NCBI GenBank assembly: GCA_937967705.1
Contig: CALCJG010000166.1
Coordinates: forward strand, 1 to 11,557
From: an uncultured Spirochaetia bacterium
GTDB lineage: Bacteria; Spirochaetota; UBA4802; JAGODF01
Direction of reading: 5' to 3'
DNA: 11,557 nt
Part shown: positions 1,341 to 11,344 of the stretch, piece by piece
Position numbering within the stretch: position 1 is the stretch's first letter
How the letters are laid out: each line of letters opens with the position of its first letter
Program-made: the position numbers and the translations under genes
Notes under the pieces: model-generated
What the model was told of the DNA's origin: nothing
Seen by the model: the letters and a program-made list of their open reading frames with translations, nothing else
Database searches by the model: none

Positions 1341-1354
1341 GGGGTCAGAGCCTT
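1341..1354 (+). repeat. dispersed repeat GGGGTCAGAGCC, copy 1 (upstream of mqnC)
   Basis: An exact copy of the 12-nt core followed by TT, preceded by two more G residues. It fills the short gap between the MotA-like gene and mqnC and ends one base before the mqnC TTG start codon, so it occupies the position where a ribosome-binding site would be expected. With the copy in ubiE it shares GGGGTCAGAGCCTYCTTGA, 19 nt with one difference. Confidence 0.85.
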
Positions 1355-1355
1355 C

Positions 1356-2426
1356 TTGAAAGCAAAGAAAAATCTTTCTGATAGAATTGAAGCCGGAGAA
1401 CGAATAACGCCGGAAGAGGCCCTTCAACTCTTTTCATGGGATCTCCTCGAATTAGGTCTTGCTGCGGACCGTCGCCGGAGGATCATTCACCCGGATGAGA
1501 CCGTCGGTTTTATCCTGGACCGCATCATCAACTATACCAACATCTGCGAGGCGGAATGCGCTTTCTGCGCCTATCACGCCCGGGCGGGAACCATAGAGGG
1601 GTATGAGATGAGCATAGATGAGATTCTGGATAAAATCCAGGAACTTGTCGATAATGGCGGGACACAGGTCATGCTGCAGGGGGGGCTTCATCCTCGTTAT
1701 GATATCAGCTATTACGTGAAAATGATCCGCTCTGTCAAGGAGAGGTTTCCGGGGATTTATCTCCATAGTTTCTCCCCCGCAGAAATAGTGTATCTCTCGC
1801 GGAAAGGGGGTCAGAGCCTCCGGGACATCCTTATACAGTTCCGGGATGCCGGTCTCGATTCCATCCCCGGCGCATCCGACCTCCTGGTGGACCGCATAAG
1901 GAAAAGGGTCAGTCCTGCCAAACTCTCCCGCAAAGAATGGAGAGAGGTGATGCATACCCTGAAGGAACTGAACATGGGGTCCTCGGCAACGATGACATAC
2001 GGCATGGGTGAAACCCTGGAGGAACGCATCGCCCATTTCGATACAGTACGGCAGGTACAGGACGAGACGGGAATCATACGCGCTTTTATACCCTGGTCGT
2101 TTTCTCCGGCCAGAACAGAGCTGCAGGATATCATCCCCGCCTCGGGTATGGATTATCTGAAAATCGTCGCAATCGCCCGTATCTATCTCGACAATATTCG
2201 GTATATTCAGGCCGGGTGGCTCACGGAAGGACTCAAACTGGCACAAACGGCTCTGACCCTCGGGGCCAACGACATGGGCGGAGTGCTTACAGAAGAAGTC
2301 GTCGTCAAAGCCACGGGTATCAGGACAAAGACCAACCGGGAGGAACTGATCGATATTATTAAAAATGCTGGGAAAATTCCTGTGCAGCGGGACTCCGAAT
2401 ACCGCGAGATCAGGAGATTTGCTTGA
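1356..2426 (+). CDS. mqnC: cyclic dehypoxanthinyl futalosine synthase (MqnC), radical SAM enzyme of menaquinone synthesis
   Basis: A 356-aa radical SAM protein of the MqnC/MqnE/CofH group. MqnC cyclises dehypoxanthine futalosine in the futalosine route to menaquinone. The [4Fe-4S]/SAM motif CX3CX2C is at Cys64, Cys68 and Cys71 (CEAECAFCAYHARAG). It is followed by VMLQGGLHP (about 105-113), the AGLDSIPG segment (165-172), IPWSFSPARTEL (245-256) and a GANDMGG C-terminal motif (303-309). MqnC is preferred over MqnE or CofH because of the CAYHARAG and IPWSF segments and because ubiE/menG lies directly downstream. The start is TTG: the frame is open upstream to about 1308 but holds no other start codon, and the known N-terminus of the family fits here. 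No normal Shine-Dalgarno is seen; a dispersed repeat occupies its place. A second repeat lies in frame at residues 151-155. The stop overlaps the ubiE start. Confidence 0.85.
   Translation: MKAKKNLSDRIEAGERITPEEALQLFSWDLLELGLAADRRRRIIHPDETVGFILDRIINYTNICEAECAFCAYHARAGTIEGYEMSIDEILDKIQELVDNGGTQVMLQGGLHPRYDISYYVKMIRSVKERFPGIYLHSFSPAEIVYLSRKGGQSLRDILIQFRDAGLDSIPGASDLLVDRIRKRVSPAKLSRKEWREVMHTLKELNMGSSATMTYGMGETLEERIAHFDTVRQVQDETGIIRAFIPWSFSPARTELQDIIPASGMDYLKIVAIARIYLDNIRYIQAGWLTEGLKLAQTALTLGANDMGGVLTEEVVVKATGIRTKTNREELIDIIKNAGKIPVQRDSEYREIRRFA
1807..1821 (+). repeat. dispersed repeat, copy 2 (inside mqnC)
   Basis: GGGGTCAGAGCCTCC within the mqnC reading frame, encoding Gly-Gln-Ser-Leu at residues 152-155 (preceded by Gly151). 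The protein is not visibly lengthened: this position corresponds to the short variable segment just before the conserved AGLDSIPG motif. The same 15 nt occur in ubiE in the same frame. Confidence 0.85.
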
Positions 2427-3136
2427 AAGGGGAACTCAAATATACTCTGGAGAACAGGGACCCCTCAGAGCGGAAGCGGTTTATTCGCAAAACCTTTGAT
2501 ACCATCGTCCCCACCTACGATCTTTTGAACCGGATTCTCTCCCTGGGAATTGATATGCACTGGCGGCGATTTGCCGCTAAAAAGGTGGATAATATCAGGG
2601 GTCAGAGCCTCCTTGATCTTTGCTGCGGTACCGGTGATTTTACCAGAGTATTCCGGAAAAAAGGGGCCGAAGTAACCTCCCTGGATTTTTCCCTGCCCAT
2701 GCTGCAGAAAGGAACCACAAAAACAAACCTAGCCCAAGCCGTAGCCGCCGATGCAAGCCAGCTACCCTTCAGGGATGAAAGTTTCGCGATCCTTTCCATC
2801 GCCTTCGGCATTCGGAACATTCCAGACCTGACGAACTTCATTTCAGAAACATATCGCGTTCTGAAAAAAGGCGGCGTTCTGGTCATACTCGAATTGACAC
2901 GCCCCCGCTTCGCAGTACTCCGCTTCATTCACAGGATTTATCTGCAGACCCTAGTCCCTCTGTTGGGCAGGGTGATATCCGGCAGATCGGAAGCCTATCG
3001 CTATCTTCCAGGCACCATTGTCACTTTCGTAGATCCCAATGCCCTGGAGGAGATGTTCCTGCGGGGCGGATACACCCGCACCGACAAGTATTACAAAACC
3101 TTCGGCACCGTTACAGTGCTGATATGCAGGAAGTAG
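2423..3136 (+). CDS. ubiE: demethylmenaquinone C-methyltransferase (UbiE/MenG)
   Basis: A 237-aa class I SAM-dependent methyltransferase that performs the C-methylation of demethylmenaquinone, the last step of menaquinone synthesis. The family N-terminus is clear (FDTIVPTYDLLNRILSLGID, residues 25-44). Motif I is LLDLCCGTGDF (63-73), the acidic strand-2 residue lies in SLDFS (86-90), and the family segments IAFGIRNIPD (126-135), YRVLKKGG (144-151) and YRYLPGTI (192-199) follow. Length is normal for the family. It starts at TTG in an overlap of 4 nt with the mqnC stop (TTGA), with AGGAG about 8 nt upstream, so translation is probably coupled to mqnC. A copy of the dispersed repeat is embedded just before motif I (residues 60-63). 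The 3' end is 3 nt from the convergent Fe-S protein gene and no terminator is visible there. Confidence 0.92.
   Translation: MKGELKYTLENRDPSERKRFIRKTFDTIVPTYDLLNRILSLGIDMHWRRFAAKKVDNIRGQSLLDLCCGTGDFTRVFRKKGAEVTSLDFSLPMLQKGTTKTNLAQAVAADASQLPFRDESFAILSIAFGIRNIPDLTNFISETYRVLKKGGVLVILELTRPRFAVLRFIHRIYLQTLVPLLGRVISGRSEAYRYLPGTIVTFVDPNALEEMFLRGGYTRTDKYYKTFGTVTVLICRK
2598..2612 (+). repeat. dispersed repeat, copy 3 (inside ubiE)
   Basis: GGGGTCAGAGCCTCC in the ubiE reading frame, encoding Gly-Gln-Ser-Leu at residues 60-63 immediately before the SAM-binding motif I. The 15 nt are identical to the copy in mqnC, 791 bp away, in the same orientation and codon frame. Confidence 0.85.
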
Positions 3137-3139
3137 AGT

Positions 3140-4219
3140 TCACTCATACTTGGTGATGTCCAGCCCCTGCACCCGTGCTTTCTCGCGATACCAGTCCATA
3201 TCATCCTCCGGGGGTGTCACCTGTTCATTTTGAGGTTTGCGGATCAGCTTGATGGCCTGTTCCGGGCAGGTCGAAGCGCAAAGCCCGCACCCGATGCATT
3301 TATCCCTGTTAATTCTGCGAATACCCCCGACAACCTCTATGGCTTTGATCTGACAGCGTGTATCCGCGCAGGTTCCGCAGTTTCTACACTTCCCCTCGTC
3401 TATCACCGCATAATAATGCGCGTTAACTGTATCCTTCATGCCAAATCGCGCGGCAATCATCTGCACACAGCAACACCCACAGCAGTTGCAGATGAAGAAA
3501 TGCCCCCTTTGTGTATTGCCGGTCATATGAATGAGCCCTGCCTCCTCGGCCATCTTGAGTATGGAAACTGCTTCCTCCTTCGTGATAACGCGACCCACCA
3601 GGGGATGATTATCAAAATAGCCCGGCTTTTCAGATACGGCAAGGCATACCTCACGGGGCTTTGAACACTCCCGTCCCAGAAATGACGTCTGCTTCTTGCA
3701 TATACACTCGCTGACAGCAAAAGAGACCGATCGGTCCAGGATGGCCGAAACCTGTTCATAGGGCATGGGATTGTTTTCTGACTTCAACTCCTTTTCTATG
3801 GGGACCACCTGCATCATCTGAGGTTTATGCATAAGAAAATAGGGACCGACGGATTTGATGTATTTGGCATGGAGCTTGGCAAATTCTGCATCGATATTCC
3901 GCTGCTGAAGCTCGTACAATCCCAGTATCCAGGGAACCAAACCGTACCGTCTCTCCTGACTTCCCGGGTCACACTCAACCAATCCCCGCTTCCACATCTC
4001 ATCCAGCTTTTGTTCCAGATGTAACCGCTCCATTCCAGTTCGGTCAGCTATTTCCGTTACACTTTCCTTACGAAGCTTAAGTTTGCAAAACAACTCGGCC
4101 TCGTCCGCCCGGAAAATTTTTTTCAAAAGCAGCAGTTCCACACCGCTTTCAGAGCGTGGAAACCCGTTGGGTAGGGAGTTCAACACATCCGCCAACTTTA
4201 TATATATCTCGTCACTCAT
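3140..4219 (-). CDS. 4Fe-4S dicluster protein with N-terminal winged-helix-like domain
   Basis: A 359-aa protein in three parts. Residues about 25-95 look like a winged helix-turn-helix domain (VTEIADRTGMERLHLEQKLD, then a wing-like RGLVECDPG). The middle is Cys-rich: CIC at 172-174, Cys185, Cys192, and an unusual CNCCGCCC cluster at 244-251. The C-terminus carries two ferredoxin motifs: Cys278-X2-C-X2-C-X4-Cys289 and Cys308-X2-C-X2-C-X3-Cys318-Pro, the classic pair binding two [4Fe-4S] clusters. No signal peptide or membrane helix is seen, so it should be cytoplasmic. Start: ATG with a strong AGGAGG about 9 nt upstream. It is monocistronic and convergent with ubiE. Electron transfer or redox sensing is the likely role; which of the two cannot be decided from sequence. 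No established gene name is recognised. Confidence 0.8.
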   Translation of the reverse strand: MSDEIYIKLADVLNSLPNGFPRSESGVELLLLKKIFRADEAELFCKLKLRKESVTEIADRTGMERLHLEQKLDEMWKRGLVECDPGSQERRYGLVPWILGLYELQQRNIDAEFAKLHAKYIKSVGPYFLMHKPQMMQVVPIEKELKSENNPMPYEQVSAILDRSVSFAVSECICKKQTSFLGRECSKPREVCLAVSEKPGYFDNHPLVGRVITKEEAVSILKMAEEAGLIHMTGNTQRGHFFICNCCGCCCVQMIAARFGMKDTVNAHYYAVIDEGKCRNCGTCADTRCQIKAIEVVGGIRRINRDKCIGCGLCASTCPEQAIKLIRKPQNEQVTPPEDDMDWYREKARVQGLDITKYE

Positions 4220-4290
4220 GTTCCCTGGCCTCCTCTCTCGATCGGATCATCTGGAAATGTTCATTCCATGACACAACCCGAAAAACCACT

Positions 4291-4305
4291 GGGTAAAGTT
4301 CACCC
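4291..4305. promoter_or_regulatory. 15-bp dyad in the leader of the Fe-S protein gene
   Basis: GGGTAAAGTTCACCC is a near-palindrome: 7-bp arms around one central base with one G/T mismatch. It lies about 70 nt upstream of the Fe-S protein start codon and downstream of the promoter suggested at 4390-4417. It could be an operator or a small RNA hairpin; no regulator family is recognised. Confidence 0.25.
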
Positions 4306-4389
4306 GATTCCTCTACCTTATAGTATTACTGAACAGACTACTCCGTGAATTTATAAGTTACAATGATGCTTTCCCATGATATAATTCAA

Positions 4390-4417
4390 AGTATAACCAT
4401 TTCACACTTTATCGCAA
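4390..4417 (-). promoter_or_regulatory. possible promoter for the Fe-S protein gene
   Basis: On the minus strand, TTGCGA (4417-4412) and TATACT (4395-4390) are 16 nt apart in an AT-rich stretch, giving a 5' leader of about 160 nt for the gene starting at 4219. The rest of the gap between 4220 and 4442 holds no convincing ORF or terminator; the only other feature is the dyad at 4291-4305. Confidence 0.35.
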
Positions 4418-4442
4418 CTTTGTCAATTTCCATTTTTATCCA

Positions 4443-4455
4443 AAGGCCTGACCCC
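4443..4455 (-). repeat. dispersed repeat variant, left flank of the transposase gene
   Basis: On the minus strand this reads GGGGTCAGGCCTT, the family consensus with one base missing in the AGAG part. It lies 16 nt beyond the transposase stop codon and is oriented opposite to the copy on the other side of the gene. Confidence 0.75.
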
Positions 4456-4471
4456 TATTCTCAATCAATGT

Positions 4472-5062
4472 TCACCAAAAAACCGCACGCTTTCTTCTAT
4501 AATATTCCTCATACAATAATAAAGTCGCCACTTTTTCCTGAAAAGTATTACCAAGATATTGGAAATATTCATGAAGAGTAATGGGAGCACAAGGGCCTTT
4601 TTCGGGATTGAGGTACTGATTAATACTACCAAATTTGTAATCCCTGGGATCCGCAACCCTTTTCTTCCTGACTGGATTAAATGCAAGATACCAGAGCAAC
4701 CAGAGGAAATAATGAAGGGGCTTACCTTGATTCTCAACAATAACATCCTTAAATCTTTCATTCCAAAAAGGACCTATGCGATTTGTCGTTCGATTGTATT
4801 TTTCCGCAAACCGAGCTTTGATATATTGCATAATGCGGGATATATTTGCCTCCCCTTCCCTGGTTTTAATAACAAGATGGAAGTGATTATCCATGATTTC
4901 ATAAAAACACAGATCAAATGTATATATTTCCTTAGCTTGTAGAATCACATCAAGAAAAAGAGCTTTGAAGTAATCCTGTTCCATTAAATCCGCCCATTGT
5001 AAGCAACGAGAATAAACATGATAAGTTGCTCCGGGTATTTGTTCACGTGGTTTTCTAGCCAT
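4472..5062 (-). CDS. REP-associated tyrosine transposase (RAYT; Y1_Tnp, IS200-like)
   Basis: A 196-aa member of the REP-associated branch of the IS200/IS605 Y1 transposases, which act on single-stranded DNA through a HUH metal site and a tyrosine nucleophile. The protein opens with MARKPREQIPGATYHVYSRC, the standard start of this family. The HUH motif is His60-Phe-His62 (in MDNHFHLVIKT). The region after it has RIMQYIKARFAEKYN with candidate nucleophile tyrosines at 80 and 89, then GPFWNERFKDVIVE and WYLAFNPVRKK, the equivalents of the usual LFQGRYKSILVE and YIHLNPVRA. ATG 5062 is chosen over longer in-frame starts because of the family N-terminus and an AGGGGGG sequence just upstream. All expected motifs are present and the frame is intact, so it may be active. 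Its job in RAYT systems is thought to be mobilising or maintaining short repeats, which fits the many copies here. Confidence 0.88.
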   Translation of the reverse strand: MARKPREQIPGATYHVYSRCLQWADLMEQDYFKALFLDVILQAKEIYTFDLCFYEIMDNHFHLVIKTREGEANISRIMQYIKARFAEKYNRTTNRIGPFWNERFKDVIVENQGKPLHYFLWLLWYLAFNPVRKKRVADPRDYKFGSINQYLNPEKGPCAPITLHEYFQYLGNTFQEKVATLLLYEEYYRRKRAVFW

Positions 5063-5230
5063 CACCCCCCTCATATCCCTATAATGCATCAGCAAATAAA
5101 ATCTGCTGACCCTCATTCTGCAATGGATATCAATCCAACTCTGCTGACATAGATAGATCGGAATGATCATTATCCGTCGCCTATATATTAATTATACGAT
5201 TGGAGATGATTTTATTAGAACATTAAATCA

Positions 5231-5257
5231 TGGGGACAGAGCCTCTCTAAATCCCCA
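5231..5257. repeat. dispersed repeat variant forming a hairpin over the mgtE stop codon
   Basis: GGGGACAGAGCCTC (5232-5245) is the family consensus with T to A at position 5. It is part of an inverted repeat: TGGGGA (5231-5236) pairs with TCCCCA (5252-5257), and inside it AGAG (5238-5241) can pair with CTCT (5245-5248). The hairpin spans the mgtE stop codon TAG (5249-5247). No T-run follows on the minus strand, so it is not a standard rho-independent terminator, though it could protect the mgtE 3' end. Confidence 0.65.
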
Positions 5258-6629
5258 GAAGCAATTTAGCTGTCGAGAAATAGATCAAAACCCCGCCCAC
5301 ATCAACCAGCGTGGCTATTGCGGGGCTGGAAACAACAGCGGGATCTATCTTAATACGTGTGGCCACGAGGGGAATTATGCCTCCCAGCACAGTTGACCAT
5401 ATTACCTGAATGGCCAGGGCCAGGGATATCATCATGGCAATTCTGGTCAATCCAAGAGCCGGGGGGATGTCATTGGATCCATGGGACATGAGAAATACCC
5501 TCAGGCAGACAATGGCTGCAACACAAACACTGAGCATAAGGCTGACCGCGAGTTCCTTTCGGATCACTCCCATTGTATCTTTGGGGGAAAGTTCGTTAAG
5601 CGCAATGGCTCGAAGGACCATAGTAGCTGACTGGGATCCTGTATTTCCACCTGTGGATATGAGCAGAGGCATGTAATAGGCAAGAATGATGAGATTCTGA
5701 AGAGTCGCCCGAAACCCTTCGATGATAAATCCGGAAAGCAACTCCAGGAGCGCCAGTATGACGATCCAGCTTGCGCGCTTTCTAAAGTGGATAAAAGCGG
5801 AAATACCCATGTAGGATTTCTCCTCGACACCACCGCTTATGGCCATCAGTTTTTCCATGTCCTCCGTCTGTTCGTCCCTTATGATATCCATGGCATCATC
5901 ATGGGTGATGATGCCGACCAGTTTTTCGTCTCGGTCAACGATGGGTAAAGCTATAAGGTCGTATTCATCAATCAGATTGGCCGCCTTCTCCTGATCTTCA
6001 TCGGCAAAAGCGAAAATTGTGTCCCGTTTCATAATATCGCTGATTTTATTCTTGGTCTTTGATATTATAAGCTTTCTCAAGGAAATGAATCCTATCAGCC
6101 GTCCCTCTTTATCCGTCACGTATATGTAATAGATGGTTTCCTTTCCTGGTGCCTCACGGCGTATCTTCTTGATAGCCTTTTCCACAATATCGTCCTCAAG
6201 GAGAGTGGCAAAATCAGTAGTCATGATGGCCCCGCATGTCTCTTCCTGATAGGAGGTCAAGCGGATTATGTCTGCCCGGTCTTTCGTCGGCAGGAGGAGA
6301 AGCAACCTGTCGGCCATCACCTTATCCAAGTGCTGGAAAAGGTCGGCTCGATCATCATGAGACATCTGCAGCAGAAGACTTTTAACGTTTTTTTTATGGG
6401 CGCCGGATATCATTGATACCTGAACGTCCATATCCATATAGCTGAATATCTCCGCCCGCTGATATATTCCAACAAGATCGAGGATTCTCCATATCTCATC
6501 GGGTCTGAGCATGCTCAGATATTCTGCAATTTCCTTATCATGGTGGTCTTCCATGAAGGATTTAAGTATCTTTAATTTCTTTTTCCTTAGCAGATATCTA
6601 AGTTCGGGAACTAGGATTGGATTTTTCAT
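5247..6629 (-). CDS. mgtE: magnesium transporter MgtE
   Basis: A 460-aa MgtE-type Mg2+ channel of the inner membrane. It has the N-terminal superhelical MgtE domain (about residues 25-125), a pair of cytoplasmic CBS domains (about 135-195 and 200-255) that in the family sense Mg2+ and gate the pore, and a C-terminal five-helix membrane domain (about 285-460). The pore signature STGGNTGSQSAT is at 325-336. The last helix carries IDPAVVSSPAIATLVDVGG, including the conserved Asp (443) equivalent to the pore-lining Asp of Thermus MgtE. Start choice: an ATG at 6650 would add seven residues but has no ribosome-binding site, whereas ATG 6629 has GGAGG at 6640-6636, so 6629 is preferred. Length is normal. 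The leader contains a short upstream ORF and alternative helices around the Shine-Dalgarno, suggesting translational control by Mg2+. Confidence 0.92.
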   Translation of the reverse strand: MKNPILVPELRYLLRKKKLKILKSFMEDHHDKEIAEYLSMLRPDEIWRILDLVGIYQRAEIFSYMDMDVQVSMISGAHKKNVKSLLLQMSHDDRADLFQHLDKVMADRLLLLLPTKDRADIIRLTSYQEETCGAIMTTDFATLLEDDIVEKAIKKIRREAPGKETIYYIYVTDKEGRLIGFISLRKLIISKTKNKISDIMKRDTIFAFADEDQEKAANLIDEYDLIALPIVDRDEKLVGIITHDDAMDIIRDEQTEDMEKLMAISGGVEEKSYMGISAFIHFRKRASWIVILALLELLSGFIIEGFRATLQNLIILAYYMPLLISTGGNTGSQSATMVLRAIALNELSPKDTMGVIRKELAVSLMLSVCVAAIVCLRVFLMSHGSNDIPPALGLTRIAMMISLALAIQVIWSTVLGGIIPLVATRIKIDPAVVSSPAIATLVDVGGVLIYFSTAKLLLGI

Positions 6630-6669
6630 ATCCTGCCTCCAATCATTCATAATGTTAATCAGGCAGGAT
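6630..6669 (-). promoter_or_regulatory. hairpin masking the mgtE ribosome-binding site
   Basis: In the mgtE mRNA, ATCCTGCCT (minus strand, 6669-6661) is perfectly complementary over 9 nt to AGGCAGGAT (6638-6630), with a 22-nt loop. The 3' arm includes the last three bases of the GGAGG Shine-Dalgarno and ends at the base before the mgtE ATG. When formed, the stem should block initiation at 6629. A second segment, GGCAGG at 6720-6715, can pair with the CCTGCC (6667-6662) of the masking strand and so free the ribosome-binding site. The pairings are seen; the regulatory role is inferred. Confidence 0.5.
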
Positions 6670-6714
6670 TCAGTATTTGATGGGATTTTATGGATGTTAC
6701 ATCAGAAACCAGGA

Positions 6715-6720
6715 CCTGCC
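6715..6720 (-). promoter_or_regulatory. competing (anti-masking) segment in the mgtE leader
   Basis: GGCAGG on the minus strand starts one nucleotide after the stop codon of the upstream ORF and is complementary to CCTGCC at 6667-6662, the core of the strand that masks the mgtE Shine-Dalgarno. A ribosome terminating at 6724-6722 would cover it. The alternative helix is only 6 bp against 9 bp for the masking stem, so it would have to act kinetically, during transcription. Confidence 0.4.
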
Positions 6721-6721
6721 A

Positions 6722-6766
6722 TTAAACCAATACAACACCCCTTCCAGCTTCAGGGTCATCCTTCAT
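6722..6766 (-). CDS. possible 14-aa leader peptide upstream of mgtE
   Basis: A short ORF, MKDDPEAGRGVVLV, ends 92 nt before the mgtE ATG. It has a well-placed Shine-Dalgarno (TGGAGA, with GGAG at 6776-6773 and 6 nt to the ATG), which is what distinguishes it from chance ORFs. The early Asp-Asp-Pro-Glu run is notable: in E. coli the Mg2+-responsive leader peptide MgtL begins with a Glu-Pro-Asp-Pro stretch, and nascent acidic/proline N-termini are known to destabilise ribosomes at low Mg2+. The peptide is not homologous to MgtL, and no published leader of mgtE with this sequence is known to me. Presence of the ORF is seen; translation and function are inferred. Confidence 0.45.
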   Translation of the reverse strand: MKDDPEAGRGVVLV

Positions 6767-6868
6767 GATTTTCTCCAGATAAATAATAACCCGCCAACGC
6801 GTGATAAAGGAACTTGTTAGCGACTATTTTCCGATCAGCGCCCGAATACTGTCAATTGATTTTTCCAA

Positions 6869-6882
6869 AAGGCTCTGACCCC
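6869..6882 (-). repeat. dispersed repeat, copy 6 (upstream of the mgtE leader)
   Basis: On the minus strand GGGGTCAGAGCCTT, an exact core, about 100 nt upstream of the mgtE leader ORF and in the same orientation as mgtE transcription. A TTGACA (6855-6850) lies just downstream on the minus strand, but no good -10 box follows at the right distance, so no mgtE promoter is called. Confidence 0.8.
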
Positions 6883-6938
6883 ATCCCCCCAAAGGTACAA
6901 TTCAACTCCAAAAACATACCGACGTGTCAGTTTTTTTG

Positions 6939-6967
6939 TTGACATATTATTCTCATACCTTTACTTT
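6939..6967 (+). promoter_or_regulatory. possible promoter for the outer-membrane protein gene
   Basis: A perfect TTGACA (6939-6944) is followed after 17 nt by TACTTT (6962-6967), which keeps the key T, A and final T of a -10 box. It would give a long leader of about 315 nt that includes the inverted repeat at 7022-7057. An alternative -35 box lies at 7170-7175. Confidence 0.35.
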
Positions 6968-7021
6968 CCATTAAGGCTTTTTGGGCAGGAGTCAATTTTA
7001 TTATAAATACCCCTGTCTGTA

Positions 7022-7057
7022 TCTATTCAAAATCTGTCCTACCGGTTTTTGAATAGA
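7022..7057. promoter_or_regulatory. 11-bp inverted repeat, possible operator or leader hairpin
   Basis: TCTATTCAAAA (7022-7032) and TTTTGAATAGA (7047-7057) are perfect inverted repeats around a 14-nt centre. A third, directly repeated TATTCAAAA lies at 7080-7088. It sits between a promoter-like site and the outer-membrane protein gene. No T-run follows, so it is not a terminator. Centre-to-centre spacing of about 25 nt would suit either a regulator binding site or an RNA hairpin. Confidence 0.4.
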
Positions 7058-7289
7058 CAAAAGCAGCATCAAGGTTTTATATTCAAAAGTCCTATTGTTT
7101 TCAGGAGATCATGCTTCCCAAGATATCCATATGGCCCTAGTATTCATAATTTACACCATGGATTAATAGTTGACATTTACAAAATAGTATTCCATTTTCA
7201 TTAAATATACTTATAGTCTCTTTTTTTTACTTTGTGTAAACCGGTGATAGCTGGTGTCCCAATACAATCCTTTCGTCATGAGGTCAGCA

Positions 7290-8705
7290 ATGAAAAAGAT
7301 TTTCGCCTTGATTAGCCTTTTTTTCCTAGCTTCACTGAGCGATGCTCTGTACGCAAACATAGCTGACACCTACGGCTGCGGCGGCCGCGGGGTAGGTATG
7401 GGCAATGCCATGGTGTCTCTCGTGGATGACTGGAGTTCCCCTTATTACAATATCGCCGGCCTGGGCAGAAAACCGAAAAAAGCTGATCTTTCCGATGCTA
7501 AAAGCAAGGTATCGTTAGTGTATAAAACCCTGACAGGAGCTAAGAAGAAAACGGTCAGCGAAAAAGATGAGAGCAAAGATAAAAGGGTCATCAACAATAA
7601 TGAGCTTGCCATAGGCTATCTCTACACTATGCCATTATTGAATGTATCCTATCCCGGAGCAACGGAGCTAAAGAATATGAACTCAGGAGCCCTTTTCCTG
7701 GGTTTGACCATGGATCTCAACACATTCATCAGGATGCCCTACGATCTGGGGCTTCGTTTTGGTGTTACGGCCATTCTTGAGGATGATTTCGGTCTGGGAA
7801 AGGTGACTGATGATGATACACAGGTGCATTATTTCCTGCGTTACGGAAGGCGCATCCAGCGCTTCCTCCTCAATATGGGGCTTGGATTTGAAGTATGGAA
7901 AGAACATCTGTATCTGGGAATAGGTTCTACCATTGGAGTAGGCGGTCAGGGGGTAGTAAAGATCGAGGAGGTCAATCTCACAGAAGAACAGCAATCCCCC
8001 CCCACCCGAAGTAAACTCAACCTGAAACCCCGGCAGGCTCCCGTTGCCGGCATCAGCTTCAAATGGGAAGATCTGGGCCCTGGAACACTTAATGCAGGCT
8101 TTGCTTATCGGGGGGAGTTGATGCTCAAGATCGATCCTTTCGACACCCAGGCTACGACTACCCTGGGAAATGTCAATATGAAGATGTACATCGCCATTCA
8201 GGACTATTACACACCCCACGAATTTGTGGGGGGAGTGGCTTACACCTACAACGATTTCTGGATTTTTAAAGCCTGTACATGGGCACTCGACATAGAGTAT
8301 CAGATGTGGTCGAAGTATGATTTATCCGCTACCCAGAAGTCTTTGGCAACCTATGAGAAACCTAATTTTAAGGACATCATCATCTATAAGTTTGGCATGG
8401 AAGAAACTGTCAGATCCTGGCTGAAGGTGCGGCAGGGTTATATCTACGAACCCGCATTCACTCCAGACCAGACAGGTCGCTCCAATTATCTTGACAACGA
8501 CAAGCATATTCTCTCACTCGGTCTGGGTTTTATTATCCCGGATGTTCTCATCCTGAAAGTACCGCTTGAGGTGGATGTAGCTTACCAATACCAGTACCTT
8601 TTACCAAGAAAAAGCGAAAAGACAAACCCGACGGTTTACAACCCCTCCTATAGCTATGATGGCCAGGTACATACCTTCATGGGATCCCTCAGAATCAGAT
8701 ATTGA
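7290..8705 (+). CDS. outer-membrane beta-barrel protein, FadL/UPF0164-like
   Basis: A 471-aa exported protein. It starts with a signal peptide (MKKIFALISLFFLASLSDAL, cleavage probably after Tyr-Ala at residue 22). The mature N-terminus NIADTYGCGGRGVGMGNAMV followed by DDWSSPYYNIAGLG matches the N-terminal plug of FadL/PorV-like barrels (compare the usual DDASAAYYNPAGLA). The remainder is rich in alternating aromatic/hydrophobic strands, and the C-terminus MGSLRIRY ends in an aromatic residue, the outer-membrane assembly signal. A Lys-rich stretch at about residues 60-95 is probably a loop. ATG 7290 is preferred over in-frame GTG 7254 or ATG 7278 because it begins the signal peptide directly and has GAGG a few nt upstream. 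FadL relatives move hydrophobic compounds across the outer membrane; the substrate here is unknown. It appears to be a single-gene unit ending in a terminator. Confidence 0.8.
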   Translation: MKKIFALISLFFLASLSDALYANIADTYGCGGRGVGMGNAMVSLVDDWSSPYYNIAGLGRKPKKADLSDAKSKVSLVYKTLTGAKKKTVSEKDESKDKRVINNNELAIGYLYTMPLLNVSYPGATELKNMNSGALFLGLTMDLNTFIRMPYDLGLRFGVTAILEDDFGLGKVTDDDTQVHYFLRYGRRIQRFLLNMGLGFEVWKEHLYLGIGSTIGVGGQGVVKIEEVNLTEEQQSPPTRSKLNLKPRQAPVAGISFKWEDLGPGTLNAGFAYRGELMLKIDPFDTQATTTLGNVNMKMYIAIQDYYTPHEFVGGVAYTYNDFWIFKACTWALDIEYQMWSKYDLSATQKSLATYEKPNFKDIIIYKFGMEETVRSWLKVRQGYIYEPAFTPDQTGRSNYLDNDKHILSLGLGFIIPDVLILKVPLEVDVAYQYQYLLPRKSEKTNPTVYNPSYSYDGQVHTFMGSLRIRY

Positions 8706-8745
8706 TCGCATGCATTGGCTCCATTCTTCATTTAACGGACGATAC

Positions 8746-8774
8746 ATCCCACTCTTAATGAGTGGGATTTTTTT
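8746..8774 (+). terminator. rho-independent terminator after the outer-membrane protein gene
   Basis: A perfect 9-bp stem, ATCCCACTC (8746-8754) with GAGTGGGAT (8760-8768), a 5-nt loop and a following run of seven T (8768-8774). It begins 41 nt after the stop codon. Confidence 0.92.
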
Positions 8775-8783
8775 AATCAGCCC

Positions 8784-8797
8784 AAGGCTCTGACCCC
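8784..8797 (-). repeat. dispersed repeat, copy 7 (after the terminator)
   Basis: Minus strand GGGGTCAGAGCCTT, an exact core, 10 nt past the T-run of the terminator. With the next copy it forms a direct pair 106 nt apart. Confidence 0.8.
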
Positions 8798-8889
8798 ACT
8801 TATTCCTCATTTATTCCTGGACAGAAGCAGTCATGATACTGACGAAATTTCATGCATCCTTATAAAGTAGATCTAGCAGACCCGTCTCT

Positions 8890-8901
8890 GGCTCTGACCC
8901 C
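8890..8901 (-). repeat. dispersed repeat, copy 8 (upstream of lepA)
   Basis: Minus strand GGGGTCAGAGCC, an exact core followed by AG instead of the common TY. Same orientation as the copy at 8784. Confidence 0.8.
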
Positions 8902-9113
8902 TCCATATTCCAACTTGCGGTTCAATACGGCCATATTGGAAAAAAATGCTTGCATTAAAAGGGGAACGAAGAACATTAATCCAATTCTGGGACCGTTGCT
9001 CCTGCGATGGACAAAAGCCTGACATTAGGGCTCTCTCGGCCAAGCGAGATTATTGATCAGATATTACCCCGGAAAAACCAAATCGCACCCGAACAAGGAT
9101 AAAGACATTAGGC

Positions 9114-10910
9114 ATGGACTTAAAGCATATCAGAAACTTTTCCATAATAGCCCACATCGATCATGGGAAATCGACCCTGGCAGACCGTATCATTGAAAAA
9201 TGCCACCTGATTGATCCCAGAAATCATATGGACCAGATACTGGATACCATGGATATCGAGAGGGAAAGGGGAATAACCATCAAATCCAACGCTATCACCC
9301 TGAATTACAGAAAACCTTCGGGGGAGGAATACATTTTCAACCTGATAGATACCCCGGGTCATGTGGATTTCACCTATGAGGTTTCCCGAGCCCTTGCCGC
9401 CTGTGAGGGTGTACTGCTTCTTGTGGACGCCTCCCAGGGTGTGGAAGCCCAGACCATAGCCAATCTCTATCTGGCCATGGAAAACAATCTGGAAATCCTG
9501 CCGGTAATCAACAAGATCGATATGCCCAGCGCCGATGTGGCACGGACCAAGGAGAGCATAGAGAAAAGCCTGGGACTTGATGCGGAAACTGCCGTCCTGA
9601 CCTCCGCCAGGGAAGGCATCGGCATCGAGGAACTCCTGGACAGGATCGTAGAGGTCATACCACCTCCCACGGGGTCTCCTGATGAACCGTTGAAGGCCCT
9701 CATCTTCGACTCCCATTTTGATAAATACGTTGGGGTCATTATTAAAGTAAGAATCTATTCCGGTATGGTAAAAAAGGATGACGAGATCCTCCTCTACTCG
9801 ACAGGAAAGAAATACACGGTAACGGAAGTGGGGGTCTTCCGTCTCACCAGGGAGAAACGCCCTGCCCTTAACCCCGGTGACGTGGGCTACATCATAGCGG
9901 GGATCAAGACCGTTATGGACACCAAGATCGGCGACACCGTAACCCTGTCCCAGAACATCACCCCGGCGCCCCTTACGGGTTTCAAAGACGTCAAGCCCAT
10001 GGTCTTCTCGGGCCTCTACCCAATGTACAGCGATGATTACGAGGAACTCAAGGAAGCCCTCTATAAACTGCGTCTTAACGACGCCTCCCTTATCTTCGAG
10101 CCTGACAATTCCTACGCTCTGGGATTCGGTTTCCGCTGCGGATATCTGGGCCTTCTCCACATGGAGATCGTCCAGGAAAGGCTGGAGCGGGAATTCGACC
10201 TGGCCCTGGTGACAACTGCCCCCAGCGTGGAGTACCGCATCGTTGACAGCCGGGGCGAGGTTCAGGTCATCGACAACCCTGTCAAGATGCCCGATCCCTC
10301 CGCTATCGAATACATTGAGGAGCCCTTTGTAACGGCGACCATCATAACACCAACGGAGTACATAGGAGCCATCATGTCCCTGGTCATGGATTGCCGGGGG
10401 ATACACAAGAGCATGGAGTACGTGGACGCCACCCGTGTTCAGCTCCACTATGAGATGCCCCTTGCCGAGATCGTCTTTAACTTTTACGATAAGCTCAAAT
10501 CCTATTCCCGGGGTTATGCCTCCTTTGATTACGAGATCAAGGACTTCCGCAGGGCGGACATGGTTAAAGTGGATATACTGGTCAACGCAGAACCTGTGGA
10601 CGCCCTTTCCTTCATCGTCCATAAGGACAAGGCCTACAACCGGGGCAAGGACATCATTGAGAAGCTCAAGGATGTGATCCCCAGGCATCAGTTCAAGATT
10701 CCTCTTCAGGCCGCGGTGGGAGCCAAGATCATAGCTCGGGAGAACATTTCGGCCCTGAGAAAGAATGTCACGGCAAAATGTTACGGGGGCGATATTACCC
10801 GCAAACGCAAACTCCTGGAAAAACAGAAGGAAGGCAAGAAGCGGATGAAACTGATAGGTTCCGTGGAAATACCCCAGGAGGCCTTCATGACGATACTGAG
10901 GATTGATTGA
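9114..10910 (+). CDS. lepA: elongation factor 4 (LepA), ribosome back-translocase GTPase
   Basis: A full-length 598-aa LepA/EF4, a translational GTPase that acts on the 70S ribosome. G1 is AHIDHGKST (13-21), switch I contains [10 protein letters not shown] (49-58), G3 is DTPGH (79-83), G4 is NKID (133-136), and a TSAREGIGI segment provides G5. Domain II and the EF-G-like domains III and V follow, with the LepA-specific C-terminal domain ending [17 protein letters not shown]. Gaps or frameshifts are not seen. The start is set by the family N-terminus ([20 protein letters not shown]). The Shine-Dalgarno is weak: AGG is only 2 nt from the ATG, and AAGGAT is 13 nt away. The gene follows a terminated gene and ends 15 nt from a convergent ORF, so it is probably transcribed alone. 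Confidence 0.97.
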
Positions 10911-10925
10911 TCTGCAGTCTGCCGT

Positions 10926-11294
10926 CTATTTCTCGGGACAGTCGTAAATTCTGAAACTGCCCGCTCCGAGAAGGCTTACGAATTCCCCCGGGAGATCTGA
11001 AGCCTGATATATCCAGAAAAGCTCCAGGGCATCCTCCTCGCAGACGATCTGAAACTCCTTGTCGCGGTAATTCCCGTCCCAGCTCAGACATCTCTCATGA
11101 ATACTGAGCACGGTAAAAAGGGTTCCAAAAAAGCTATGGTCATCGCACTCCAGGGACACAAGCACGTTGAAATCGAGGGATGTTCCCATGGGCTTCCATC
11201 CCCGCTCCAGAGCATTGTCCAGCACATGAATCCACTCCCTGTCGCTGAAGGTGAAGACAAAAGAGTCGTCGATGTTTCTGACAGTATAACCCAT
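10926..11294 (-). CDS. hypothetical protein, 122 aa, unknown function
   Basis: An ORF convergent with lepA (15-nt gap). The product is acidic and rich in aromatic residues (for example SDREWIHVLDNALERGWKPM at 17-36 and FWIYQASDLPGEFVSLL near the C-terminus), with no signal peptide or membrane helix, so it should be a small soluble cytoplasmic protein. I do not recognise a family. It is accepted as real because it fills the space after lepA neatly and reads like an ordinary globular protein, whereas overlapping frames do not. Start: ATG 11294, with only a weak GGGA upstream. A dispersed repeat copy lies 39 nt upstream in the same orientation. Confidence 0.55.
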   Translation of the reverse strand: MGYTVRNIDDSFVFTFSDREWIHVLDNALERGWKPMGTSLDFNVLVSLECDDHSFFGTLFTVLSIHERCLSWDGNYRDKEFQIVCEEDALELFWIYQASDLPGEFVSLLGAGSFRIYDCPEK

Positions 11295-11332
11295 AGAAAT
11301 CCCATATCGGCTTCATTCTGTTGAAAAACCGG

Positions 11333-11344
11333 GGCTCTGACCCC
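11333..11344 (-). repeat. dispersed repeat, copy 9
   Basis: Minus strand GGGGTCAGAGCC, an exact core, upstream of the 122-aa gene and oriented with it. It lies in the divergent gap between that gene and the one starting at 11479. No promoter is convincingly seen in this gap. Confidence 0.8.

Follow-up and report, generated by a model that had tools for sequence, protein, structure and literature searches.

The contig CALCJG010000166.1 of an uncultured Spirochaetia bacterium (assembly GCA_937967705.1), analysed here in full as a window of 11,557 nt, carries a short repeat, GGGGTCAGAGCC, scattered around a RAYT-like transposase gene and even inside neighbouring genes. The locus raises the question of what this word is to the transposase and how its copies came to lie within coding sequence. 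It is well supported that the word, which has an 11-nt core (GGGGTCAGAGC), is the end, or terminal inverted repeat (TIR), of the RAYT-like transposase; we take it to be this RAYT family's cognate end because the ends of the element, the dependence on RAYT and the locality of the copies all lead to it. For the copies that stand alone (solo copies), the best explanation, to which we assign a probability of about 0.5, is that the end word of a TIRYT-type RAYT spread by local replacement of equal length and was then kept exact.

A word scan of both strands confirmed that the repeat is real and beyond chance. It returned the seven exact copies placed by the initial annotation and two one-mismatch copies. 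Nine matches at up to two mismatches were present in the window, a number reached by none of 200 shuffles (mean 0.98, maximum 6), so the claim that chance is excluded stood. The list of copies itself had to be amended, since the one-mismatch copy at 2249–2260 had been missed and since one of the two reported variants, that at 5232, is a one-mismatch copy while the other is GGGGTCAGGCC at 4445–4455 and not 4443–4455. The core, taken at first to be 12 nt, is 11 nt followed by a weak M-Y: in 282 distinct copies from the collected loci, base 12 was C in 57% and A in 34%, and base 13 was T in 51% and C in 27%. The TY proposed on the 3' side of the repeat thus proved partly right. The remaining flank columns of these copies were nearly uninformative, with mild A-richness on the 5' side, in line with the view that little flanking sequence is shared. 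The described lack of a hairpin also held, as DNA folding of nine 72-nt window contexts gave z values of −1.29 to +1.76 relative to shuffles, which rules out the identity of the word as a hairpin REP. The window contained no Rfam family at the gathering threshold.

The word as an end of the transposase element

The transposase gene has a start common to relatives at 5053 (193 codons), within a longer reading. Its product matched PF01797 with 35 bits (cut-off 23) and the NCBIfam RAYT model NF047646 with 72.7 bits, under the cut-off of 80. Pfam gave no domain besides PF01797, and no comparison aimed at a helix-turn-helix (HTH)-like C-terminal domain was made. There were 611 relatives at E ≤ 0.001, and the named organisms among the 120 listed were Spirochaetota or Spirochaetes. 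The residues H60 and H62 (HUH), Y125 and N129 were invariant in 38 aligned relatives, and the motif YLAFNP was present. The predicted fold (pLDDT 91) was closest to E. coli TnpA_REP 4ER8 (E 5e-8), followed by the ISDra2 and IS608 transposases; 4ER8 was also the sole match in a profile search of the PDB. By its PF01797 match, these residues and the modelled fold, the gene encodes a RAYT-like Y1 HUH transposase, and the reported company of a short repeat and a RAYT-type gene was borne out.

End words were scanned in 60 RAYT loci, namely the window and 59 of the 77 collected loci (18 that were cut off, partial or listed late were dropped). The motif CTG[AT]CCCC occurred within 250 bp upstream of RAYT in 31 loci and GGGG[AT]CAG within 200 bp downstream in 16; both ends were found in 13, including the window. 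There the gene is flanked by both inverted words, each imperfect, and the motif GGGGWSAS is contained in both ends (GGGGTCAG at 4445–4455 and GGGGACAG at 5232–5243).

While one copy of the element is visible in the window, a near-identical multi-copy element with defined ends was seen in the relative G028. A 511-base query of this element gave 23 matches, 19 of them at 94–100% identity and many at contig ends. The boundary sequence was GCTCTGACCCC at seven distinct left ends. The word was present at 12 of 16 right ends (once as GGGGTCAGAAC and twice as AGGGTCAGAGC), and these 12 diverged directly past the word, with T as the second base in 11. The sharp ends of these near-identical copies show that in some Spirochaetota the gene and two inverted words move as an element. 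Five G028 element copies (L063, L065, L123, L129 and L137) have in common an extra module of ∼60 bases outside the left end, whose outer edge is a further copy of the word; upstream of RAYT, L064 and L066 have a different module in common. Solo words seem to be able to act as alternative ends.

Abundance, crowding, replacement and exactness of solo copies

Genome-wide counts were made in relatives, and the window was the only host sequence counted. The genomes are mostly metagenome-assembled, their contigs break at repeats, and related sites share ancestry. The exact 12-mer was found in 23 of 28 genomes with RAYT loci, in up to 76 copies, with zero matches of the reversed word in all of them. 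The 11-mer was present in 0–168 copies per genome (118 genomes, G001 and relatives), compared with at most two per strand per genome for the reversed-word control; chance was thereby rejected, and counts so far above the control did not refute the initial annotation. Where a genome has a strong RAYT match, at least five copies were present in 32 of 36 cases, compared with 3 of the 82 other genomes (Fisher p 5e-21, ignoring phylogeny), where the limit for a strong match (E below 1e-34) and that of five copies were chosen after the tables had been seen. The comparison with relatives lacking a strong RAYT match likewise did not refute it, as 79 of those 82 genomes had 0–4 copies.

RAYTs of other lineages are surrounded by related words, such as GTCAGAGTAA in G009 and CTCTGGCACC in G019, and word and enzyme therefore appear to change together. 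This comparison used top-ranked words and no control; related words were clear in G009, G016, G019, G020 and G104, whereas G023 had just three word occurrences in 3.2 kb and G026 none. In G016, which has ten RAYT matches, the related words GCTCTGGCCC, GGGTCTGGCA, GCTCTGACAC and GCTCTGACCC occur side by side (L028, L029, L039, L044, L070 and L071), as if there were one word dialect per RAYT. Around a distant RAYT (L226, G104:C1:48501-68500) there are 16 copies of GCTCTGTCCC; another repeat, which contains CCAGTTCCTCG and ACTGGCCGAA, is found 15–17 times in 20 kb.

The copies crowd round the RAYT gene, a feature absent from the initial annotation. In the window, all outer copies lie within 6.3 kb of the gene. 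Around the 59 RAYTs retained as above, the downstream density per kb was 0.56 at 0.1–1 kb, 0.58 at 1–2 kb, 0.14 at 2–5 kb and 0.03 at 5–10 kb, and the upstream density was 0.31 (0.3–1 kb), 0.16 (1–2 kb), 0.17 (2–5 kb) and 0.09 (5–10 kb); the reversed word gave one match in total. A larger locus set gave 0.51 (0.3–1 kb), 0.35 (1–2 kb) and 0.17 (2–4 kb); for this set, as for the counts of reading frames and neighbours below, seven genomes with another word or a distant RAYT were omitted. Of the 21 copies in the whole G017 genome, 19 are no more than 5 kb from one of three RAYTs, as are 21 of the 27 in G018 (∼0.2 expected), which shows the word concentrated round RAYT loci in shared synteny. Ten of these near copies in G017 and nine in G018 lie within 300 bp of a RAYT and may therefore be ends of elements. 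Many non-coding copies are clustered, and neighbours within 150 bp were in the same orientation in 69 cases, convergent in 12 and divergent in 9. Two tandem word arrays with a 19-base period and six copies each (G001:C22:17-123 and G001:C70:67383-67489) lie away from any RAYT found. A RAYT and menG are neighbours, at most ∼7 kb apart, in the window (1356–5170), in G004:C1 (12344–12925, 19122–19823) and in G028:C69 (1–339, 3990–4673).

Solo copies more than 300 bp from RAYT were divided almost evenly: 124 lie in open reading frames (ORFs) of 120 or more codons and 122 do not (sites that are orthologous between sister genomes were counted separately). The copies thus enter genes but are under-represented there, as 85% of the sequence is covered by ORFs. 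All five stop-free frames were used, 21–29 times each, which rules out a protein-level constraint on the word; the sixth frame holds a stop and is therefore impossible within an ORF. We saw no bias for frame, strand or gene position among solo copies. Nine of ten hosting ORFs picked from this set have Pfam families, including a threonine aldolase-type lyase, peptidase U32, histidyl-tRNA synthetase, ApbE, a TonB receptor and RACo.

Among the low-gap alignments described below, 19 comparisons set a copy against a relative in which the word is absent; in 17 of them there was no gap within 8 bases of the site, and 1–7 of the 11 bases differed (mean 4.0). At the menG site (2598) the word was absent from homologues of 30 genomes and 31 of 32 rows were gap-free in the stretch compared; at the mqnC site 1807 it was absent from homologues of 18 genomes and all 22 rows were gap-free. 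Alignment of mqnC with PDB 6xi9 was also gap-free at the word. At the mqnC site 2249 the window alone reads T-A-L-T-L-G, where all 20 rows (18 genomes) read [IVL]-A-L-[ASD]-[MF]-G. As shown by these alignments, solo words apparently arise by replacing existing bases, in genes too, with length unchanged. The description of the repeat as gene-invading thus holds for its presence within genes, but in nearly all comparisons the copies are equal-length replacements and not insertions.

Exactness was examined in the 62 of 83 alignment rows whose flanks had less than 3% gaps (merged to 41), where the low gap fraction stands in for coding. The 11-mer was identical in 22 of 41 between-genome comparisons, with 4.3 expected from GC-matched neighbouring windows, and in 18 of 29 (4.0 expected) with one comparison per site group. 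None of 20000 simulations, a Monte Carlo that ignores phylogeny, reached either count. Copies were kept in 8 of 19 comparisons at 70–80% flank identity (1.0 expected), 10 of 11 at 80–90% (1.9) and 4 of 4 above 90% (1.4), which shows that the word stays exact while its flanks diverge. Up to 4 kb from RAYTs, 174 copies were exact and 134 had one mismatch. This was G1A, G3T or C11T in 93 of the 134, and positions 2, 6, 7 and 9 had 0, 0, 1 and 1 mismatches, a pattern not expected of decaying repeats.

The features of the window are collected in Table 1. The exact copies had pointed to an orientation rule, as the three left of the RAYT gene are all plus and the four right of it all minus; the copy at 2249 breaks the rule, and none was seen by eye at other loci. 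Two further ORFs were noted in the window. That at 7254–8705 encodes an outer-membrane protein that weakly resembles FadL/AupA (31.1 bits in Pfam against a cut-off of 29.7; 74.6 bits for AupA in NCBIfam against a cut-off of 840), and that at 881–1324 (147 aa) has MotA/ExbB-like matches in Pfam and NCBIfam.

Table 1. Copies of the word and the transposase gene in the 11,557-nt window
Feature	Position	Strand	Context
Solo copy, exact	1341–1352	+	Directly 5' of predicted mqnC start (TTG at 1356)
Solo copy, exact	1807–1818	+	Within mqnC; reads G-Q-S-L
One-mismatch copy, AGGGTCAGAGCC	2249–2260	−	Within mqnC; commonest tolerated variant
Solo copy, exact	2598–2609	+	Within menG/ubiE; reads R-G-Q-S-L
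3'-side terminal repeat of RAYT gene, variant GGGGTCAGGCC	4445–4455	−	One base shorter
RAYT/TIRYT-like Y1 (HUH) transposase gene	4472–5170	−	Longer reading starts at 5170 (232 aa)
5'-side terminal repeat of RAYT gene, one-mismatch GGGGACAGAGCC	5232–5243	+	Inverted relative to the other end
Solo copy, exact	6871–6882	−	Intergenic, 5' of mgtE
Solo copy, exact	8786–8797	−	Intergenic; 104 bp to next copy, same orientation
Solo copy, exact	8890–8901	−	Intergenic, 5' of lepA (9114–10910; name read from the sequence)
Solo copy, exact	11333–11344	−	5' of minus-strand ORF 10926–11294

Origin of the solo copies

In the explanation that we prefer, GGGGTCAGAGC(M)(Y) is the TIR of a RAYT of the TIRYT type and also the word that this single-strand HUH transposase recognizes. 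Working in cis close to its own gene, the enzyme would use single-stranded DNA, probably of the lagging strand, and would transfer or template its end word onto partly matching stretches. Equal length, indifference to the reading frame and a range of a few kb would all follow from such action, and this range would suit lagging-strand single-stranded stretches, which the passages on IS200/IS605 transposases in PMC6006769 give as their favoured substrate. Repeated conversion, or else selection for the sites, would account for the exactness. We favour conversion in cis because it best unites locality, equal-length replacement and exactness, and we infer that the copies were written in place. More tentatively, the RAYT could be a cis-acting DNA writer that turns partly matching 11-mers within a few kb, even in conserved host genes, into the exact end word with length unchanged and keeps them by repeated conversion; in this full form the proposal is a doubtful one.

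A serious rival, whose chance we consider real though below even, is that solo words function as binding sites and are maintained near the RAYT by selection, and that they arose by point mutation with no conversion. They would bind either a host protein or the RAYT itself, whose role would be that of a regulator, a sink or a replication-linked site. Exactness and conservation within and between genes speak for such sites, as do the unequal orthologues, which often match several of the 11 bases. They are harder to reconcile with the indifference to frame, strand and gene position, with many clustered copies per region, which exceed the need for a few sites, and with the conserved residues altered in the window. 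It is unlikely that the words came first and are target sites at which the RAYT element preferentially inserts. Elements do adjoin further words, and the G007 contig C55, which has no RAYT where G033 has one (flanks 87–89% identical), holds words all the same; but the share of G017 and G018 copies close to RAYTs leaves little reservoir elsewhere, and nearly all genomes without a strong RAYT match have at most four copies of the word. An exact empty site was sought: at G007 C55 no pre-insertion target was readable because the spacer is unalignable, and a comparison of L192 with G007 C75 was no clearer. We disfavour, as quite improbable, the reading of solo words as dead remnants or footprints of past insertion and excision of elements. 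The words match element ends, many non-coding copies are clustered and some G028 modules are bounded by words, yet in-gene copies bring no length change and decay would be expected at all positions, not at a few. DNA uptake signals (DUS/USS), as in Neisseria or Haemophilus, are short exact words in coding DNA that use all stop-free frames. This likeness is outweighed by the range of copy number between genomes, the crowding near one gene and the tight link to the presence of RAYT, so that an uptake signal is scarcely credible here.

Several observations weigh against the explanation by local equal-length replacement. Conversion itself was never seen, and no close pair with a fresh gain was found among the relatives compared. 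G039, G044 and G046 hold 12–25 copies with no RAYT match, for which gene loss or incomplete assembly may account, and G019, G020, G023 and G026 have a RAYT but 0–1 copies. Beyond 4 kb the density did not fall further (0.066 per kb at 4–7 kb, 0.072 at 7–11 kb). In G001 and G012, 11 of 67 and 10 of 50 copies lie within 5 kb of a RAYT (0.6 and 0.3 expected), and most are far away, often clustered. Although it lacks the RAYT, G007 C55 shares a conserved solo word with G033 in the flank that aligns, and another word lies in the spacer. Below 70% flank identity no copy was kept (0 of 7). Alignment of menG with PDB 4obw has a six-residue gap shortly 5' of the word, and 4 of the 16 G028 element copies have no right-hand word.

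Relation to known systems and meaning

A classification of RAYTs reportedly appeared in GBE in 2017. The combination of a repeat and a resident RAYT, which the initial annotation had called unusual, has a published precedent: the arrangement is of the TIRYT/TIRtron type, here in Spirochaetota. According to the passages on TIRYTs in Di Nocera et al. 2013 (PMC3733652), these have a RAYT-like tyrosine transposase and GGGGWSAS TIRs instead of REP hairpins, and TIRtron repeats may form genomic families as single copies, dimers or clusters. The window agrees in its RAYT-like Y1 HUH gene and in inverted ends that fit GGGGWSAS, and in the window and in the genomes of relatives the repeats form a family. 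The locus also resembles TnpA_Y1 subclass 2.1, described in the corresponding passages of Quentin et al. 2018 (PMC6006769) by a class 2 Y---NP motif, no REP hairpins, the TIR GGGG[AT][CG]A[CG] and an HTH-like C-terminal domain; YLAFNP fits the motif, REP hairpins are lacking and the TIR consensus is shared. In contrast to our locus, no REP-like sequence was found near subclass 2.1 genes in those passages. The crowding of solo copies, equal-length replacement within genes, exact conservation and the Spirochaetota hosts set our case apart from TIRtrons as described in PMC3733652, and the first three go beyond the TIRYT passages of both papers.

Like REP/REPIN sequences with their RAYTs, in the portions of Nunvar et al. 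2010 (PMC2817692) consulted, the words are dispersed and their abundance tracks the resident RAYT, and the predicted fold is nearest to TnpA_REP. Unlike them, the word has no hairpin and no GT[AG]G foot (neither GTAG nor GTGG), close neighbours are mostly in the same orientation (69 versus 21) and about half of the solo copies lie in ORFs. The HUH/Y1 catalytic fold and the multi-copy G028 element with sharp ends resemble IS200/IS605 elements, whereas the ends here are inverted 11-mers. Literature searches gave no bacterial repeat under this word by title among the matches listed, and in the parts of the literature covered no report of the locality, the equal-length replacement or the exactness turned up.

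The finding touches the open question of how REP-like words multiply and of the role of a domesticated RAYT for or against its host. It offers a simple local footprint, an 11-base word laid over neighbouring genes with no insertion or deletion and then kept, and, with one enzyme and one unstructured word, a directly testable system. If the proposal of a DNA writer is true, a domesticated single-strand transposase would perform template-directed local rewriting. The system would also be a case of a transposase that constrains the coding DNA of its host without inserting anything.

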